DNA of 7,129 nt from assembly GCA_016188575.1 (NCBI GenBank), contig JACPHN010000111.1:1-7129 (forward strand), read 5' to 3'. The stretch comes from Candidatus Schekmanbacteria bacterium. Its GTDB lineage: Bacteria > CSSED10-310 > JACPHN01. The notes beneath the pieces are model-generated. The model was not told the DNA's origin. It worked only from the letters and a program-made list of their open reading frames with translations, and made no database searches. The position numbers and the translations under genes were made by a program. Below are positions 1-7,129 of the stretch, piece by piece; position 1 is the stretch's first letter; every line of letters begins with the position of its first letter.

Positions 1-43
1 GACCGATATCCCCGGCCGTCGGTTCACGGATCAAGCCACCACA

Positions 44-107
44 GGCCTACTTGCTCCCGGCCATACCCACCCAACTGCCACGCCCCGTCTGGCCTACTTT
101 TCGCCGG
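44..107. repeat. two imperfect copies of a GGCCTACTT-N-CCGG motif
   Basis: The 9-mer GGCCTACTT occurs at 44-52 and again at 91-99, and both copies run on to a CCGG-type end (to about 60 and 107), giving a spacing of 47 bases. The similarity fades beyond about 16 bases. Bases 1-133 contain no other feature I can support: all three forward frames are open or nearly so, but their third positions show no strong G/C preference, unlike the sequence after 134. No promoter with a good -35/-10 pair was seen. The copies may be chance or part of a regulatory site for the plus-strand gene. Confidence 0.25.
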
Positions 108-133
108 CACACCCCGGTCGTTTTTCGCCAGCG

Positions 134-1036
134 TTGAAGCTGAAGAAGCAGCGCACGGCCGCGAACGAGACCACGGCGCAGTCGGCGACGGGATCGACGA
201 CGGATCTGGCGACCACCTCGGCCACCGGTTACACCGTCACCGGGTCCGTTTGGGTAGAGGCTTTTGGGGACACCTCGGCCAATGGTTGTGCCGACAGCAA
301 GGGCTGTCTGGTTGCCGCCTACAACACCAACACCTACCGGTACAGCGACGGAGTCACGGTACCCGCGGGTACGCTGGTGAAATACGTGGCCTTTCAGGGC
401 AACTCGTACTCCCTATCGCTGCCCTTCCCCGGAACGTTTGTCATCGTCGCCGGCCGCATCCTCTACGAAGGCTTGCAATGCCAGTTCCCCCAGCTTGGCA
501 CCGGCGTGATCATCATCGGCAAGCCCGGGACCTACACCGTCAACATCGATACACAGAGTATTGAAGGAGTAGATTGGGGAAGATACTACAATCAGTTCGG
601 ACCCGATTACTCCGGCGGGGACATGATGGACCCGAAATACAACCTGTGCATGTCGGGACAAAACAAGCCGTGCTTCGAGCACAGGCACATGTTCTGGAGA
701 GACATCGATGCGGGAGCCGCCGGCACCGATCTCCGCACCATGGTCGTGTCGAACGCGGATGCGACCAGCAGGGTGCTGACCACGTCGTCTGGCGCTTCTC
801 CGGCCGCTTCGCGCATCGTGCAAAACCAGAACGAGCTCTACGCGATATTCATTTATGGCGGCAACGTGCAAGAGCTGAAAAACGCGCTGTGGATCACCTT
901 CGACATCAAGACCGGCGCTTCGCGAATCGATTACATGTTCTATCCGGTATGTAACCTCATCGACATGTCCCGCGTCTGCCAGCCGAGGGTTCCGTGCCCG
1001 CCACTCCGGAAATTCGCGGTCATCGGCGCCGAGTGA
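134..1036 (+). CDS. unrecognised cysteine-containing beta-rich protein, possibly exported; start uncertain
   Basis: I do not recognise this 300-residue protein. It has a polar Thr/Ser/Ala-rich N-terminus (about residues 8-32), then a segment rich in predicted beta strands (VTGSVWVEAF, GTFVIVAGRIL, TGVIIIGKPGTYTVNI), and eight cysteines (residues 52, 58, 116, 172, 180, 273, 282, 288). Paired spacings such as C52/C58 and C172/C180 suggest disulfides and an extracytoplasmic location, which is inference. The start is weak: TTG at 134 has no Shine-Dalgarno sequence and is not followed by a signal peptide, and the frame stays open to base 2. I keep 134 because the third codon positions become strongly G/C-rich from there on and are not before it. 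The true start may lie left of the window, or the 5' end may be lost. The block 541-600 is unusually AT-rich. The gene ends inside the tail of the convergent subtilase-fold gene. Family, substrate and role are unknown. Confidence 0.55.
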   Translation: MKLKKQRTAANETTAQSATGSTTDLATTSATGYTVTGSVWVEAFGDTSANGCADSKGCLVAAYNTNTYRYSDGVTVPAGTLVKYVAFQGNSYSLSLPFPGTFVIVAGRILYEGLQCQFPQLGTGVIIIGKPGTYTVNIDTQSIEGVDWGRYYNQFGPDYSGGDMMDPKYNLCMSGQNKPCFEHRHMFWRDIDAGAAGTDLRTMVVSNADATSRVLTTSSGASPAASRIVQNQNELYAIFIYGGNVQELKNALWITFDIKTGASRIDYMFYPVCNLIDMSRVCQPRVPCPPLRKFAVIGAE

Positions 1037-2423
1037 TCCAGGCCCCCCCGAGCAACGCCAGCAGCCCCGTCCAGCTCAGCGCCGGGACCTGGGTTCCCCC
1101 GTGGTAAGCGGTCCAGATGTCCACCTGGCCATTGCCGGTGCGATTGTCATACCCCACGCCCGTCGAGGGAATGTCGAGAGCGGATCGCTCGAGGACGTCC
1201 GCGAGGTCGGCGGGGCGGTCCAGCCGGTAATGCTCCTGGAGGAGGGCGGCCGCCCCCGCGATGACCGCGGCGGCCGCCGCGGATCCGCACTGGTACCCTG
1301 GCGCGGTGAAGGTCGACTGGCAGTCGGTAGCCGCGACGTGCGGGGAGATGCGTTCGACCAGCGCATCGGTCAGCAGCCGCGCCGGGCCCTCGCCGCTATA
1401 CCCGCGCGGCCCGAAGAGCCGTCCGCCGGCCGGCTCCGGCTCGGGTGAGCCGCGGTCCAGGGCGGCTACCGCCAGCGCTCCGGAAACCGCGCCGATGCCG
1501 CTGATGGAAAACTCCGGTACGAAAGACTGACCCAGGGAGGGGATCTGGACGTCGGCGGGTCCGAGCAACGAACAAGGAGATACGTACAAGTCTATTATTC
1601 GCACCGGAGATGATGCATCTTTCCAAATACCAAGATAATATAACCCTGCCGGCTTGTTATTTTCACCGACGGAGGCCATCGGACCACCAGAAGAATCGCC
1701 GATCTCGAGCACATTCATGTTTGGATCGTAAAGATACAAGAAGTACTCACTGTACACGGTGGAGGCATAGTCGTCGCCCCAGATGAGCATGCCTCCAGTA
1801 TTCGAGCATTGATCTGGCACCTCTATCGGCATCGCCGTGACCCCGCCGCCGAAATCATGAAAGCCGTTGCCGGCGTCCTGAAACGTGCCGCGGTAGTGCG
1901 TCAGGCGATTGTCGTCCGCGCTCGTCACGACCAGCGTCCCGTCCGCGATCACCTTCTCGATGGCGGCGATGGACGGATGGGTGTTGGCGAATGTCGGCCA
2001 AACATAGGTTCTGTCCGGAATCAGCGCGATGTCGGCGGAGCCGTCCCAGTACTGCTCGCCGAGGTCCGCGTAGAGCTCGCTCGCGGGATTGAGCATCGTG
2101 TATCCCTGAATACTCGCTCCGGGTGCGATGTCGTGCACGATTTCGGCGAGGCGGGTGCCGAGGCTCACCTGATGGGCGTCGTTGCGATACTTGAAGGTGA
2201 TCACCGGCAGCTCGCCTTGCGCCAGCGCCGCTTCGTAGCCGTAAAACGCGTAGCCGAAGACCGCCACGGTGACACCCTGCCCGGTCAAGCCGGTTTCGGC
2301 GCGGAACCGGGCGAAGTCGTGCTCGGTGTCGGCCTGTGCCACCACCTGCCCCGCGCCGTGGGCGAATCCCCGGCCGAGCAGGCAGGTTGCTGCCATCAGT
2401 GCCAGCAGTGCCTTGCGTGCCAT
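1020..2423 (-). CDS. exported subtilisin-fold (S8-like) pseudoprotease with degenerate catalytic triad and IPTL-CTERM-like tail
   Basis: The 467-residue product has a signal peptide (residues 1 to about 24), a subtilisin fold and a C-terminal sorting-type tail. The fold shows as GLTGQGVTVAVF (46-57), LGTRLAEIVHDIAPGA (88-103), a beta-sandwich insert bounded by C206 and C284, the nucleophile helix CGSAAAAAVIAG (379-390), and GNGQVDIWTA near the end. It resembles the S8-like group whose usual motifs are VLSDSF, xEGRAMLxIVHDVAPGA, SAGN and CGTSAAAPH. By position, every catalytic residue is replaced: Asp by Gly57/Tyr58, His by Leu88, Ser by Ala382, and the oxyanion Asn by Asp170/171. The frame is intact over the whole length and ends in an ordered tail, so it is not a decaying pseudogene. 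It should bind rather than cut. I chose ATG at 2423 because it gives a good signal peptide and has AAGGGA six bases upstream. A longer frame to 2507 lacks these, and the ATG at 2396 would strip the charged n-region. It is co-directional with the kinase gene and overlaps it by 28 bases. Confident in fold, inactivity and export; function unknown. Confidence 0.86.
   Translation of the reverse strand: MARKALLALMAATCLLGRGFAHGAGQVVAQADTEHDFARFRAETGLTGQGVTVAVFGYAFYGYEAALAQGELPVITFKYRNDAHQVSLGTRLAEIVHDIAPGASIQGYTMLNPASELYADLGEQYWDGSADIALIPDRTYVWPTFANTHPSIAAIEKVIADGTLVVTSADDNRLTHYRGTFQDAGNGFHDFGGGVTAMPIEVPDQCSNTGGMLIWGDDYASTVYSEYFLYLYDPNMNVLEIGDSSGGPMASVGENNKPAGLYYLGIWKDASSPVRIIDLYVSPCSLLGPADVQIPSLGQSFVPEFSISGIGAVSGALAVAALDRGSPEPEPAGGRLFGPRGYSGEGPARLLTDALVERISPHVAATDCQSTFTAPGYQCGSAAAAAVIAGAAALLQEHYRLDRPADLADVLERSALDIPSTGVGYDNRTGNGQVDIWTAYHGGTQVPALSWTGLLALLGGAWITRRR
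1023..1088 (-). other. IPTL-CTERM-like C-terminal sorting/anchor tail
   Basis: The last 22 residues of the subtilase-fold protein (446-467) read VPALSWTG, then a short hydrophobic stretch (LLALLGGAWI), then TRRR at the very end. This matches the order of the IPTL-CTERM signal (IPTLSxWG, hydrophobic segment, Arg cluster), which is known to be handled by exosortase-type enzymes in Gram-negative bacteria. It departs from consensus in the middle: WTG replaces xWG, and the hydrophobic stretch is shorter than usual. It could be a variant processed signal or simply a membrane anchor. No exosortase gene is visible here. Confidence 0.6.
1565..1800 (-). other. low-GC block inside the subtilase-fold gene
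   Basis: A hand count of 1561-1800 gives 116 G/C in 240 bases (48%), against 48 of 60 (80%) at 1201-1260 in the same gene. The block almost exactly covers the beta-sandwich insert between C206 and C284 (codons at 1808 and 1574). The insert contains YFLYLYDPNMNVLEIG and AGLYYLGIW, strands typical of the accessory sandwich in this S8 group. The match of composition and domain edges suggests either separate descent of the insert or a composition effect of Tyr/Asn/Ile-rich residues. Confidence 0.7.
2352..2423 (-). other. Sec-type signal peptide of the subtilase-fold protein
   Basis: From the ATG at 2423 the product starts MARKALLALMAATCLLG, with two positive charges and a hydrophobic core of about 13 residues, followed by a polar, small-residue stretch (GRGFAHGAGQ). 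Cleavage after Ala24 (HGA) is plausible. The Cys at position 14 is preceded by AAT, which is not a lipobox, so I do not call a lipoprotein. Confidence 0.72.
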
Positions 2424-5400
2424 GCCATGTCCCTTTCCCAACGCTTTCTGAAAGCTGCCGCCAGCGCTGTCGCCAGACCATCGGCGGATTCTTCGAGAAG
2501 CGCCCAAAATCGTTGCTCGTGCTCATGGCAGCCGGCGCACCAGACGAGCTTGCACAGGATGTCCATTTCCACCGGAGCCAGGGTCATCTTGCCGACTTCG
2601 CCAAGCGCCGAGCGTAGTGCGGCTTCGTCGCGTTTGAAATACCCCAGCAGCATGTCTCGCTCAACCGCCCGCCGCGGACCGATCTCGGCAAGGAGCTCCG
2701 CCAGGGCGAAGGCTCGCGCCGCGTCTGCCGTGTGGACGGCATGCCGCAAGGCCAGCATGTACAGGCCCAGCCGCTCCTCCGTGCCGGCGAACGGGGTCTC
2801 TCGGAGGCGGCTGGACAGGATTTCCCCCGCGCCGTCGAAGTCGTGGCGCAGCAATCGATATCGAATCCGCGTGCAGTCGGCGAATATCCTTTCTTCCTCT
2901 TCGTCGAGCCGCGGCAGGTCGGTGTCGGAGAGCTCGCCCCCCGCGTCGACCAGCACGTCGCAACGAGTCAGCTCCAGGTTGCCGCGGACAGTCGGCGACA
3001 GGCGATGTGCGTAGCGAGCGGCGCGGTCCAGCGCGTGGAAAGCTGGGCCCAGTCGGCCCGACAGCCGCGCGAGCTCGGCCTGCTGGCACAGCATCATGGC
3101 GAGGTTGTCGACGCCGGAACAGTAGCGTTCGACGCGCTGGGTGTGTCGAATGGCCTCGGTGAGGAGGCCGAGCTCGGCCGCAGCCTCGACCAGATGTGAC
3201 GAAGCGGGCAAGAAGTATGGATGGGATGCCGGCATCTGGGCCAGAGCCGCCGACACCATTTCGTACTGGCGAAGGGTGTTTGCGCCAGTGGAGAGGTTGG
3301 CCTGGATCAGACCCGCATAGATGTTGATGGCCAGATCCGGCCGATGCTTGTGCCGATCCAAGGAAATCTGAGCGTAATCGCTTCGGCGCAATCTCAAGGG
3401 AAGAGGGAGCAGAGCATCGTTGGCGGTTACCAAGGTGCTGAGAAGGATCTTGCGGGTGTACGAACCGAGCGCTTCGAAGGTGACCTCCTCCATGCGGTCC
3501 AGCAGGGAAATTACCGCATCGTCGAAGTTGTCGCCTTTCGACAGGTGCGCGATGGCGATGCACGCTTCCACGTACGCGTCGCGGCGGTCCGCGCACGCGT
3601 CCGCGAGCGCGAGCGCGCGTTCGGCATCGGCTCTGCGCTCCGCCATGGGGAAAAGCCGCGTCATCGACCGCGCCGCATACGCCCGTGCCTCGAGGCCCGG
3701 GTCCCGGAGCCCTGCCGCGAGATCGATCGCCGCCTGAGTCACCTCCCTGAACCGCTGCTCCCGCATCTCCTGTTCCGGCATGCACCGCAGCGCCTGCAAG
3801 TAGCAGATCAGGCAGGAAAACCACGCGCGCTCGTTGCCGATTGGCCGACCGATCATCTCCATGGCGGTAATCAGGTCGCGATGGGCGTCCTCCTGCGAGA
3901 GCTCCTCTACCAGTGCCATCCCAAACGCCACGGCACGGTGCGAGCCCGCCTCGAGGAGCAATCGCAGCGCTCTCGAGCGGTCCTCGCTGCGCACCGCCTG
4001 GGCGAGCGCGCCAACGTCCAGGTCGGCCGGCGTCGCTGGCCAGTCCGGGCGCGCCAGCGCGTTGGCCGGCCTCACCCGCCCATCCGCGTCGCGCAACACG
4101 TGCCTGCCGAGCGCATCGAGCGCCACCGCCGCCCGTTCGTTGCTCCAGCCCAGGGTTGCGGCGATCCCGGCCGGCGGCAGCCAAACGCCGCCGAGCCAAA
4201 TTGCTCCATACGCCGCCGCGGCGTCCGAGGACAGCTCGCCGCGGGGAACGCGGTATGCGGCGGCGAGCTCGGCGAGCGCCGGCGCCGCGAGGATCCGCTC
4301 GATCTGCCGCGCCTCGATGCGCCAGCGCAACGTCGGCATGCTCAGCGCCGCGCCGGCCGCGATCAGCTCACCCAGCAAGGCGATGAGAAGCTGCGGCGTG
4401 CCACCGGCGGCGACGAAAAGCGTCGCCGCGGTCCGCTCGGCGTCATACACGTCGCCGAACACCCGCGCGAGCAGCTCCTGGGTCTCCGCGACACCAAGCG
4501 GCGCCAGCTCGATCGTCCGCGCTTCGTCTCGGGCGATTCTTACCGACCGCGGCGCGCTCGTCGTCGCGACGATGCGGGCGCGACCCCACTCGGCCCACTC
4601 GAGCGCATCGCGCGCCGCCGCCCACGCCTCGAGGTCGTCTACGAGCAACACCGACTCCGCGCACGCGCTCCCGGCCGCCGCGGCGAAGACGTCCCCGAGG
4701 TCGCCCGCTGCCATCGATACCACGTTTCGGCCAGCCGTCCTCAGCTCGGACGCGAGCTCCCGCAAGAACCTCGTCTTGCCCGCGCCCCGGCCGCCCCACA
4801 CGAGCACGAGCCGTGGCCCGGCGGAGTCCTCCACCAGCGCCCCGACCTGCCGCTGCAGCTCCCGCCGCCCCACGTACGCCCAGGCGAGCCGCCACCGCGC
4901 GGTCTCGAGGTCTGGATAAATCGCGTCCGGATTCCACTCGGCGCACACCTCGGCGAAGGAGCGCGGCCGGATCGTTGGGTCGCGGTCGAGACAGCGGCGC
5001 AGCAAGGACCGAAGCCGCGCCGGGATGCCCTCCGACACCATCGGCGGGTCCTCGTCCATGCGTCTCGCGCAGTCCGGCAGGCTTGCCACCGGCAGCGGGG
5101 TGATGCCGGCAAAAACCTCGTGTATCAGCCACGCGAAGCTATAGATGTCCGCGCGCGCATCGACGAGCGTCGCGCGCTCTCTGCCCAGATGTCGTGCCAG
5201 GACCTCCGGCGCCATGTAGGCCGGCGTGCCGCCGGCCGCGGCTGCCGTCAACGACCCCAGGAGCCCGAAGTCCGTGAGCCTCACGGTGCCGTCGGTGGTC
5301 AGCATCACGTTGTCAGGTTTGAGGTCCCGGTGCGCCGCCGCCATTGTCGTCGTCACGAAATCGAGCGCCTGAGCGAGCTGCCAGCCGACACGAATTGCCG

Positions 5401-7129
5401 TCTCCGCGTCCAGCCCGACGCGGCTCGCCTGGGTCAGCGTTCGCGGCAGATACTCCATGACGAGGCCGACCATGCCGAGCTCCTCGTCGTGGACGACATC
5501 GAGCATGCGCACGATGTGCGGGTGCGCGAAGGCGCTGAGCGCCCGCATCTCCTCGCGGAACCGACCCGCCGCCCGCTCGCCCGCCATGCGCGTCACCTTC
5601 ACCGCGACCTGCCGGCCGTCCAACTCTCCGCGGAACACCATCCCCATGCCGCCCTGGCCGATGAAGGACAGCAGTCGACAGGAACCGATGTGGCCGCGGG
5701 CGAGCAGCTCGTCGGGGGAGAGGGAGCTTCGAGTTTCGGGTTGCGGGTTTCGAGTGTCGAATTGCGGGTTTCGGGCTTTGGGTTGCGCGTTTAGCGCGGG
5801 GCCTTCCAGCGCTCGCGTTCGCGCGGCGAGGTGAAAAGGGGGGCCAACAGGCGGTGTGCTCAGGGTCTCCAGGGTCACCTCGGAACCGGAAGCCGGGAGA
5901 TCGGCGCACGGAGCCGACGACGGGCCGCCTGAGACTTCGAGCGCGAAACTCGAAACCTCAAACTCGGAACCGACCTCCCACGTCCCATCGTAACCCCGCC
6001 GCAGCCGGCCCGCCGCGACCTGTTCCCCGAGCCAGTCGATCAGCGTCCCCGGCAGGCGCGGTGCCGCCGCCATGAGCTCCTCCGCGCCCGCCGCGAGCGG
6101 CCCGCCGAGCACGGCACGGCACAGTTCCGCCGCCGGCGCCGCTGCCAGCGCTTCGAGCCGTCGCACGGGCGCGCCCAGACCCACCAGCGCGTCTTCCGAT
6201 TCCGCGGTCACCAGGGCCACGCCCGCGAAGCGCGCCAACAGCGCCGCGACGAATGCGCGGGTGGCGTCCGACGCCGCGTCGAGCCGTTCGAGAATCAGCG
6301 CCGACGCGCTCTCCCAGGTCGGCGCCAACGCCCGCGCCACCGTCTCGGCCGCGCCGGCGTCGAGCGCCGCGATCCCTTCGCCCGCGAGCTCCGCGCCGGG
6401 ATGCGCCCGCCGCACCCGCGCCACCAGCTCCTCGGCAACCGCGCCCGCCGCGATCCGGTCGAGACGCAGCCGCACCACCAGCAGCGACGCGCGCTCCCAC
6501 GCCACGCGCGCCTCCGTCGCCAGGCGGTGCTTGCCGCTGCCCGCCGGGCCGACCAGGCCCAACCGCGGTCCCGCGTGCCCCGGCCGGCAAACCGCCCAGG
6601 CGGCCTTCGCGATCTCGGCCAGCTCATCCTCCCGCCCGACGAGCCGCGTCGCGGGCAGGTCCAGGTAGCTGATCGCCGCCGGCGGGAACAAGCGATCCCG
6701 CTCCGCGTCCAGCTCCGCCCACGCCGCGAGCCGCGCGCCCAGCACCCCCGGAAACGGCCGCGCCTCCGGCGCCAGCGCGAAACACTCCCGCAGCACTGCT
6801 TCGAGCTCCGCGGGAAACGGCGCCACGATCTCGCTCGGCCAGCGCGCCGGCTGCGCCTGCTCGGCGCGGCCGGAGGCGTCGAACGTGCGCACCGGAAACG
6901 CCGCCGCACCGCACCACAGCTCGTACAACACGCAACCGAGTGAAAAGATGTCGCTCCGCGGCACGGCGTCGATCGCCCGGCGCGACTGCTCGACCGCCAT
7001 CGCCCCCGGCGTCCCGAACATCTCGCTCTTGCCGGTCTGCCGCATCGAGCTCCAGAGATGCGACGCCGGCAGCTCCGCGACGATGCCGAGATCCATCAGC
7101 GTCGCGTGACACCCTGCTCCGCCGGCACC
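2396..7129 (-). CDS. tandem serine/threonine kinase-ATPase fusion with helical TPR-like tail (5' end cut by window)
   Basis: The frame is open to the right edge, so the N-terminus is missing; 1577 residues are visible. Residues are numbered from the Met at 7096. Kinase 1 (to about 130) shows only its C-lobe: DLG (2-4), GTPGAMAVE (28-36), Asp49 in SDIFSLG, and Arg113. ATPase 1 (about 150-345) has LVGRE, Walker A GPAGSGKHR (183-191) and a weak Walker B near 267-273. A linker (375-460) carries three 7-residue repeats. Kinase 2 (463-715) is complete: glycine loop IGQGGMG (479-485), Lys500, Glu516, HRDLKPDN (589-596), DFG (609-611), GTPAYMAPE (623-631), Asp650 and Arg710. ATPase 2 (740-925) starts YVGRR, with Walker A GGRGAGKTR (768-776) and Walker B VLLVDD (816-821). 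The rest, to 1566, is Ala/Leu-rich helices with a TPR-like look. No membrane segment was seen, so it is probably cytoplasmic. Such kinase/P-loop/TPR fusions are signalling proteins of the PknK or STAND kind. It should phosphorylate Ser/Thr, with the tail sensing partners; targets are unknown. The doubled kinase-ATPase unit is unusual. Confidence 0.92.
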   Translation of the reverse strand, partial: GAGGAGCHATLMDLGIVAELPASHLWSSMRQTGKSEMFGTPGAMAVEQSRRAIDAVPRSDIFSLGCVLYELWCGAAAFPVRTFDASGRAEQAQPARWPSEIVAPFPAELEAVLRECFALAPEARPFPGVLGARLAAWAELDAERDRLFPPAAISYLDLPATRLVGREDELAEIAKAAWAVCRPGHAGPRLGLVGPAGSGKHRLATEARVAWERASLLVVRLRLDRIAAGAVAEELVARVRRAHPGAELAGEGIAALDAGAAETVARALAPTWESASALILERLDAASDATRAFVAALLARFAGVALVTAESEDALVGLGAPVRRLEALAAAPAAELCRAVLGGPLAAGAEELMAAAPRLPGTLIDWLGEQVAAGRLRRGYDGTWEVGSEFEVSSFALEVSGGPSSAPCADLPASGSEVTLETLSTPPVGPPFHLAARTRALEGPALNAQPKARNPQFDTRNPQPETRSSLSPDELLARGHIGSCRLLSFIGQGGMGMVFRGELDGRQVAVKVTRMAGERAAGRFREEMRALSAFAHPHIVRMLDVVHDEELGMVGLVMEYLPRTLTQASRVGLDAETAIRVGWQLAQALDFVTTTMAAAHRDLKPDNVMLTTDGTVRLTDFGLLGSLTAAAAGGTPAYMAPEVLARHLGRERATLVDARADIYSFAWLIHEVFAGITPLPVASLPDCARRMDEDPPMVSEGIPARLRSLLRRCLDRDPTIRPRSFAEVCAEWNPDAIYPDLETARWRLAWAYVGRRELQRQVGALVEDSAGPRLVLVWGGRGAGKTRFLRELASELRTAGRNVVSMAAGDLGDVFAAAAGSACAESVLLVDDLEAWAAARDALEWAEWGRARIVATTSAPRSVRIARDEARTIELAPLGVAETQELLARVFGDVYDAERTAATLFVAAGGTPQLLIALLGELIAAGAALSMPTLRWRIEARQIERILAAPALAELAAAYRVPRGELSSDAAAAYGAIWLGGVWLPPAGIAATLGWSNERAAVALDALGRHVLRDADGRVRPANALARPDWPATPADLDVGALAQAVRSEDRSRALRLLLEAGSHRAVAFGMALVEELSQEDAHRDLITAMEMIGRPIGNERAWFSCLICYLQALRCMPEQEMREQRFREVTQAAIDLAAGLRDPGLEARAYAARSMTRLFPMAERRADAERALALADACADRRDAYVEACIAIAHLSKGDNFDDAVISLLDRMEEVTFEALGSYTRKILLSTLVTANDALLPLPLRLRRSDYAQISLDRHKHRPDLAINIYAGLIQANLSTGANTLRQYEMVSAALAQMPASHPYFLPASSHLVEAAAELGLLTEAIRHTQRVERYCSGVDNLAMMLCQQAELARLSGRLGPAFHALDRAARYAHRLSPTVRGNLELTRCDVLVDAGGELSDTDLPRLDEEEERIFADCTRIRYRLLRHDFDGAGEILSSRLRETPFAGTEERLGLYMLALRHAVHTADAARAFALAELLAEIGPRRAVERDMLLGYFKRDEAALRSALGEVGKMTLAPVEMDILCKLVWCAGCHEHEQRFWALLEESADGLATALAAAFRKRWERDMAWHARHCWH
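2430..2435 (-). promoter_or_regulatory. ribosome binding site for the subtilase-fold gene, within the kinase coding region
   Basis: AAGGGA, read on the minus strand, lies six bases before the ATG at 2423 and supports that start over others. It sits inside the last codons of the kinase gene, whose stop is at 2398-2396, so ribosomes finishing the kinase pass over this initiation site. This points to one transcript and translational coupling. No separate promoter for the downstream gene is evident. Confidence 0.55.
5726..5799 (-). repeat. 21-bp (7-codon) tandem repeat within the kinase linker; left arm of an inverted pair
   Basis: Bases 5729-5791 fall into three 21-base units that keep the reading frame. 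On the minus strand they encode NAQPKAR, NPQFDTR and NPQPETR, a pattern N-[AP]-Q-x-x-[AT]-R. The 12-mer TTGCGGGTTTCG occurs exactly at 5741-5752 and 5762-5773. The segment is rich in TTTCG and GGG runs, unlike the surrounding coding sequence. Short TTTCGGG-type dispersed repeats are found between genes in some GC-rich bacteria, so this may be such an element captured in frame; that link is inference. Confidence 0.75.
5935..5977 (+). repeat. inverted partner of the linker repeat; right arm
   Basis: This stretch carries the same motif in the opposite direction. CGAAACTCGAAACC at 5944-5957 matches the complement of the left arm (CGACACTCGAAACC) at 13 of 14 bases. Read on the plus strand it gives ARNSKPQTRN, the same kind of peptide the left arm gives on the minus strand. 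In the kinase frame it encodes FEVSSFALEVS. The two arms enclose about 135 bases and could fold as a stem-loop in the transcript, or mark the ends of a small inserted element. Confidence 0.6.

Follow-up and report, generated by a model that had tools for sequence, protein, structure and literature searches.

Introduction

In Clostridioides difficile, subtilisin-like proteins that no longer cleave peptides have been given another task, as the pseudoprotease pair CspC:CspA transduces germinant signals (PMC6636752, PMC12880746); of its catalytic residues, CspC retains the Asp (PMC6636752). Inactive peptidases also occur as effectors of variable conflict systems; the core of these is of the MoxR-vWA, GTPase or trypsin kind, and their description names subtilisin once, in another setting (PMC7159879, Kaur et al. 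2020). Here we describe a gene for a pseudoprotease of the subtilisin (S8) fold, referred to as the pseudo-subtilase, together with the kinase cassette in which it lies. It was found in a Candidatus Schekmanbacteria bacterium, on a stretch of 7,129 nucleotides (the window) which makes up one entire contig of a 9.2 Mb draft genome (275 contigs, 94% complete, 3.7% contamination).

The window protein and the Csp proteins (CspC and CspA, as well as the protease CspB) have in common the subtilisin fold and a jelly roll inside the subtilase domain, and catalytic residues are lost in CspC and CspA as they are in the window protein; for the Csp proteins a non-catalytic signalling role is established. 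In the predicted structure the window protein has the jelly-roll insert that marks the Csp pseudoproteases, a likeness at the level of domain content. However, the Csp proteins retain their prodomain in bound form and work on a partner protease within the spore, while the window protein has no prodomain and, unlike them, possesses a signal peptide, a C-terminal tail and a kinase partner. It is not a member of the CspBA sequence family either, as the NCBIfam CspBA model gave no match at E <= 1. The mycosins of type VII secretion (MycP) resemble it in having a signal peptide, an S8 domain and a C-terminal membrane segment, but they carry the catalytic triad and sit in ESX loci, and mycosin identity was rejected at 25 bits against the cut-off of 278.75 of NCBIfam TIGR03921.

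Results

The window protein has a subtilisin fold and lacks the S8 catalytic residues

The pseudo-subtilase gene is an uninterrupted reading frame on the minus strand, running from the ATG at 2423 to the stop codon at 1020, and its 467-residue product consists of a signal peptide, an S8 fold with an inserted jelly roll and a C-terminal membrane or sorting tail (Table 1). A structure model predicted from an input of 85 sequences (predicted local distance difference test, pLDDT, 87.8; predicted template modelling score 0.89) was superposed on a variant of subtilisin BPN' with Z 32.4 and 2.0 A across 250 residues, and this superposition, together with PDB profile matches to subtilisins, places the protein in the subtilisin fold. 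Foldseek returned as top matches of the model the Clostridium Csp proteins, including CspA, CspB and CspC (9pr9, 9pr8, 6mw4, 4i0w). The Pfam Peptidase_S8 profile covers the C-terminal part of the window protein alone and stays below its cut-off there (19.8 bits, gathering score 21.8), a score which most paralogues pass in a search of the genome. As to the jelly roll, it is indicated by model strands between residues 197 and 281, by a match to the Tk-SP jelly roll profile (i-E 8.9e-5) and by the Csp matches of the model.

We aligned the protein with 77 relatives from many bacterial phyla and from archaea (L012-L091). Residues 57/58, 88, 171 and 382 fall exactly on the columns of the catalytic Asp, the base, the oxyanion Asn and the nucleophile Ser, and in the model they are placed as in subtilisin, with 57/58 closing a strand, 88 opening a helix and 382 at a helix start. 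The window codons at these positions are GGC/TAC, CTC, GAC and GCG, respectively, and neither an Asp/His/Ser nor an Asp/Glu/Ser set with an oxyanion Asn is present. We are thus highly confident that the window protein is a subtilisin-fold pseudoprotease, that is, a non-catalytic one. The initial annotation, made from the DNA letters alone, had claimed an intact frame, a subtilisin fold, export signals at both ends and replacement of Asp by Gly/Tyr, of Ser by Ala and of Asn by Asp; all of this was borne out, codons and alignment being in agreement on the replaced residues.

Table 1. Features of the window with their positions, strand and basis
Feature	Position	Strand	Basis or remark
Pseudo-subtilase gene, 467 aa	1020..2423	minus	Open reading frame; S8 and PDB profile matches; structure model
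Sec-type signal peptide, about residues 1-24	2352..2423	minus	Hydropathy
Gly57-Tyr58 at catalytic Asp	2250..2255	minus	Asp column: His-type relatives 57, Glu-type 58
Leu88 at catalytic base	2160..2162	minus	Relatives: His 12/77, Glu 64/77
Asp171 at oxyanion Asn	1911..1913	minus	Asn in 77/77 relatives
Inserted jelly-roll (beta-sandwich) domain, about residues 185-290	1554..1871	minus	Between oxyanion and Ser positions
Ala382 at nucleophile Ser	1278..1280	minus	Ser in 77/77 relatives
VP-hydrophobic-RRR tail, residues 446-467	1023..1088	minus	Membrane anchor or exosortase-type sorting signal
Kinase(1)-AAA-kinase(2)-AAA-TPR partner gene	2396..7129	minus	Pfam; 5' end cut by contig end
Constant kinase-gene head	5630..7129	minus	Kinase 1, AAA 1, start of kinase 2
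Third cassette gene, family without assigned function	140..1036	plus	Homologues adjoin 8/8 pseudo-subtilases
End of repeated element	1..139		Common to 20 contig ends; replaces third-gene start in window

Active-site loss is shared by eight paralogues in the genome

The source genome contains eight full-length pseudo-subtilase paralogues, with pairwise identities of 30-67%, all of which group in one clade of the tree with a support of 100/100; a ninth copy is a fragment cut at the end of contig C252. The catalytic Asp is absent from all eight, and none has His at the base. Position 57 is G or A, while position 58 reads Y/Y/N/P/E/E/E/L across the copies; in the same order, position 88 reads L/V/I/R/L/L/L/E (the alignment near it being harder in the five more distant copies), position 171 D/D/G/N/D/D/D/D and position 382 A/S/W/A/S/S/S/A. 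Ser382 is therefore replaced in half of the paralogues, on separate branches (L001 A, L006 W, L007 A and L011 A), and such repeated separate loss is expected once catalysis stops constraining this residue. The GTSxAAPH motif has likewise lost its Pro-His in the clade. Because both Asp and base are missing from all eight paralogues, while every one of the 77 relatives retains Asn171 and Ser382, the loss of the active site is not a matter of chance. Thirteen additional homologous stretches in other genomes also have intact active-site residues where these are covered. The possibility raised at the outset, that only this one sequence was mutated among active homologues, thus fails, as mutation affects every paralogue in the genome, and intact sites occur in distant relatives only.

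In the closest pair of paralogues the ratio of nonsynonymous to synonymous substitutions (dN/dS) is about 0.21 (0.26/1.28); the remaining pairs are saturated at silent sites. Two pairs of cysteines are almost confined to the clade, and each disappears as a pair in a single copy only, Cys206/Cys284 in L007 and Cys368/Cys379 in L011. Judging by the sequences, this paired gain and loss is what one would expect if the cysteines formed disulfides in an exported protein. Loss of the sites without decay of the frame, to which the initial annotation had pointed, is very probably a family-wide state that is maintained for a non-catalytic function. That close relatives are absent elsewhere is based mainly on a direct search of 386 genomes, which is not proof, and seven other genomes of the source phylum were available for comparison. 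The source genome has 46 S8 matches in all; its S8 proteins other than the paralogues number about 30, and most of them have intact His/Asn/Ser motifs by pattern.

The base position probably changed from Glu and not from His

Leu88 had been read in the initial annotation as a replaced His. It does stand at the base column, but a His origin is not what the relatives support: position 88 is Glu or His in 76 of the 77 sequences, and Glu prevails (Table 1), also in the nearest ones. These Glu-type relatives follow the pattern ISDG ... EGTAMLEIIHD ... VDDxG ... SAGN ... GTSAAAPH, with Glu at the subtilisin His and with Asp one column after the canonical Asp, at position 58, where the window protein has Tyr. 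As the window clade nests on the Glu side of the tree, with the 12 His-type rows on the other side, the change in the window lineage was probably from Glu to Leu rather than from His to Leu.

The Glu-type S8 proteins (of Chloroflexota, Planctomycetota, Myxococcota and Methanosarcina/Methanospirillum) have the same domain and jelly-roll insert as the window protein, to which they are 25-30% identical. Unlike the window clade, they have Ser and Asn always and Asp and Glu mostly, and they carry a prodomain as well as a C-terminal PKD or similar domain. This subgroup is widespread in its own right, comprising 64 of the 77 relatives in both bacteria and archaea. All 64 have Asp, on the strand preceding the oxyanion position, where the His-type proteins have Ser, and both Asn and Ser are present throughout; their centre may possibly be of an Asp-Glu-Ser or sedolisin-like kind on an S8 fold.

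Export signals are found at both ends, and the prodomain is lost

In the window clade the subtilase domain begins directly after the signal peptide and there is no prodomain, while relatives have a signal peptide and about 100-150 residues ahead of the equivalent point (median upstream length of 138 residues, counted to the first Met). At the other end, the VP of the C-terminal tail is invariant in all eight paralogues, and similar tails are found on other S8 proteins of the source genome. This genome has one exosortase match, and IPTL-CTERM was matched weakly by one paralogue (E 0.048). With such signals, the window protein would be exported and anchored at the membrane or the surface.

Every pseudo-subtilase lies in a cassette with a kinase gene and a third gene

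The coupling to a kinase, which the initial annotation had assumed, proved to be general at the gene level, as all eight copies show the same order: a kinase gene, then the pseudo-subtilase, then a convergent third gene. The kinase gene has about 1,500 codons and its product is, in the fuller copies, of the form kinase-AAA-kinase-AAA-TPR, although in some copies Pfam gives weak matches or none to the AAA and TPR parts; contigs C16 and C52 show the front of kinase 1. One of the eight cassettes has a split kinase frame, as does the partial ninth, and another cassette shows only part of the kinase. The kinase stop codon overlaps the pseudo-subtilase start by 28 nucleotides in the window and by 10-28 nucleotides in seven of the eight cassettes, with a gap of about 20 nucleotides in the eighth. 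The third gene usually overlaps the end of the pseudo-subtilase, in the window by 17 nucleotides between the two 3' ends, and the window copy is missing its 5' part. Exactly eight genes of its family occur in the source genome, all inside these cassettes, and none in the 59 other genomes searched. The third proteins mostly bear a signal peptide and belong to no Pfam family.

The cassette was also compared with known defence systems by means of PADLOC, and such an identity was rejected, because the kinase proteins match broad kinase models only and the pseudo-subtilase matches none. In L113 and L119 the kinase frame is broken near the second kinase domain into two that overlap, due to a frameshift or an assembly error. 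There are at least 188 protein-kinase matches in the source genome, many of them in proteins of 1,200-1,300 residues. A partly similar neighbourhood is found in Chloroflexota (L051, 1302-9608), where three Ser/Thr kinase genes stand directly ahead of an S8 gene on the same strand, as in the cassette. However, Asp, His, Asn and Ser are all intact in this S8 protein, which also bears C-terminal zinc ribbons, and the kinases are not of the kinase-AAA-TPR type; neighbourhoods of S8 and kinase genes occur with a probably active protease, too.

The kinase genes have a uniform head and divergent tails

The head of the window kinase gene is 89-97% identical at the DNA level to those of four other cassettes (five cassettes in all), while below about position 5630 three of the four drop to 38-69% identity and C253, the closest, departs from the window more gradually. 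Strong matches to the head are confined to pseudo-subtilase cassettes, the exceptions being a pair of contig ends which overlap with the end of the window itself. The kinase tail, the pseudo-subtilase and the third protein diverge together (rank correlations of 0.84, 0.74 and 0.71; permutation p <=0.004). What is unexpected is the uniform head, and the sequences suggest gene conversion or head exchange. When the heads on the window (5630-7129), C153, C110, C253, C207 and C252 are taken together, DNA identity is 87-97%, most tails being strongly divergent, and the boundary between head and tail is a sharp one inside kinase 2.

The 139-bp repeat end that opens the window is likely to come from a mobile element that the assembly lacks. 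On C252 it is found again, where the ninth pseudo-subtilase copy is cut.

Discussion

We consider it somewhat better than an even bet that each cassette is a recognition-and-response unit, in which an exported non-catalytic recognition protein is tied to a cytoplasmic kinase; that the recognition role of the pseudo-subtilase is functionally tied to its own kinase seems to us evenly balanced. According to this proposal, the pseudo-subtilase would be made together with the cytoplasmic kinase-AAA-TPR protein and with a second, probably exported partner. It would act as the extracytoplasmic recognition part, binding a ligand (a peptide, a protein or a small molecule) most likely in or near the old substrate cleft, and a signal would pass from the outside to the kinase. 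Specificity would then come from a variable part made up of the pseudo-subtilase, its partner and the AAA/TPR half of the kinase protein, while the kinase head would be a shared output. For such a function, the pair CspC/CspA is the nearest precedent. A further step, which we put forward only tentatively and regard as rather doubtful, is to see here a lineage-specific variable recognition system, its constant kinase head and variable tail following a logic like that of a receptor repertoire. The variable conflict systems likewise join a constant core to variable and often catalytically dead enzyme parts; in contrast to them, the dead enzyme of the window cassette carries a signal peptide.

Several observations weigh against the proposed recognition unit. 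Linked descent by itself would also make the cassette parts diverge together. In the kinase protein no clear transmembrane segment is found, for which reason it is probably cytoplasmic. The model of the third protein is poor (pLDDT 54), and three paralogues (L008, L009 and L010) keep Ser382 along with Glu58 and a His at position 92. The second of these points would suit a non-signalling surface protein, such as an adhesin, a scaffold or an envelope component, whose amount or export is controlled by a kinase that receives no signal. So would the export signals at both ends, the VP-hydrophobic-RRR tail being common to other secreted proteins of the genome, and the fact that translational coupling fixes stoichiometry only. 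Nevertheless, a kinase gene of this size stands beside every one of the eight copies and its tail diverges along with them, which fits a specific pair better than a general regulator, if not decisively; we judge the surface-protein explanation unlikely, if plausible enough to be kept in mind. It is also conceivable that the protein is a decoy or inhibitor trap, which mimics an active surface subtilisin, binds inhibitors, prodomains or substrates that stem from competitors or invaders, and in this way shields the cell's own S8 proteases. The genome has such proteases to protect, and the family is variable and multi-copy. However, identity to the active S8 proteins of the cell is low outside the Ser region, with C-terminal matches only, so that mimicry is not obvious, and no MoxR, vWA or effector-associated domain was found when the three kinds of cassette protein were scanned with Pfam. 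This makes a decoy improbable in our view.

Two other explanations touch on the active site itself. Ser-Glu-Asp peptidases on a related fold exist, namely the sedolisins, and kumamolisin was among the Foldseek matches of the model, so one might suppose a rewired enzyme, still active with a different catalytic set; the three Ser-keeping paralogues, which have Asp171 in addition to the residues mentioned above, would be the best candidates. The window protein, on the contrary, has Ala382 and no His at position 92, four of the eight paralogues are without Ser, and the prodomain has been lost. A rewired triad in the window protein was rejected as well, since no other Ser/His/Asp set was both invariant in the clade and absent from the relatives. 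Taken as a whole, the explanation is highly improbable, with little chance of an active enzyme in L008-L010 and very little in the window protein. Decay, in which recent duplicates turn into pseudogenes and the loss of residues is tolerated by drift, might seem to be indicated by the ninth copy, which is cut near the repeat, and by the third gene of the window, which is truncated by the same repeat. Yet there are eight long open frames despite their divergence, structural residues are invariant, and the low dN/dS of the closest pair and the co-varying Cys pairs point the same way; on these grounds the pseudogene reading was rejected, and we give it hardly any credence.

Regarding novelty, the initial annotation had taken pseudoproteases of this kind coupled to kinases to be undescribed. 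The kinase cassette appears to be new, but S8 pseudoproteases as signal receptors were already known from CspC and CspA. No match to S8 pseudoproteases with bacterial kinases was found in the open literature at the thresholds used. The novelty is thus the kinase cassette, the combination of export and anchor, the missing prodomain and the multi-copy family, and not S8 pseudoproteases as such.

It is mainly in the germination of C. difficile spores that a signalling role of S8 pseudoproteases has been demonstrated. The window clade is more completely stripped of catalytic residues, is predicted to be exported, has no prodomain and occurs, within a single genome, in at least eight kinase cassettes. 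Should the proposed recognition role be true, the subtilisin fold would have been turned into a diversified receptor-like module, and kinase genes with a constant head and a variable tail would make its specificity testable by swaps of cassette parts.

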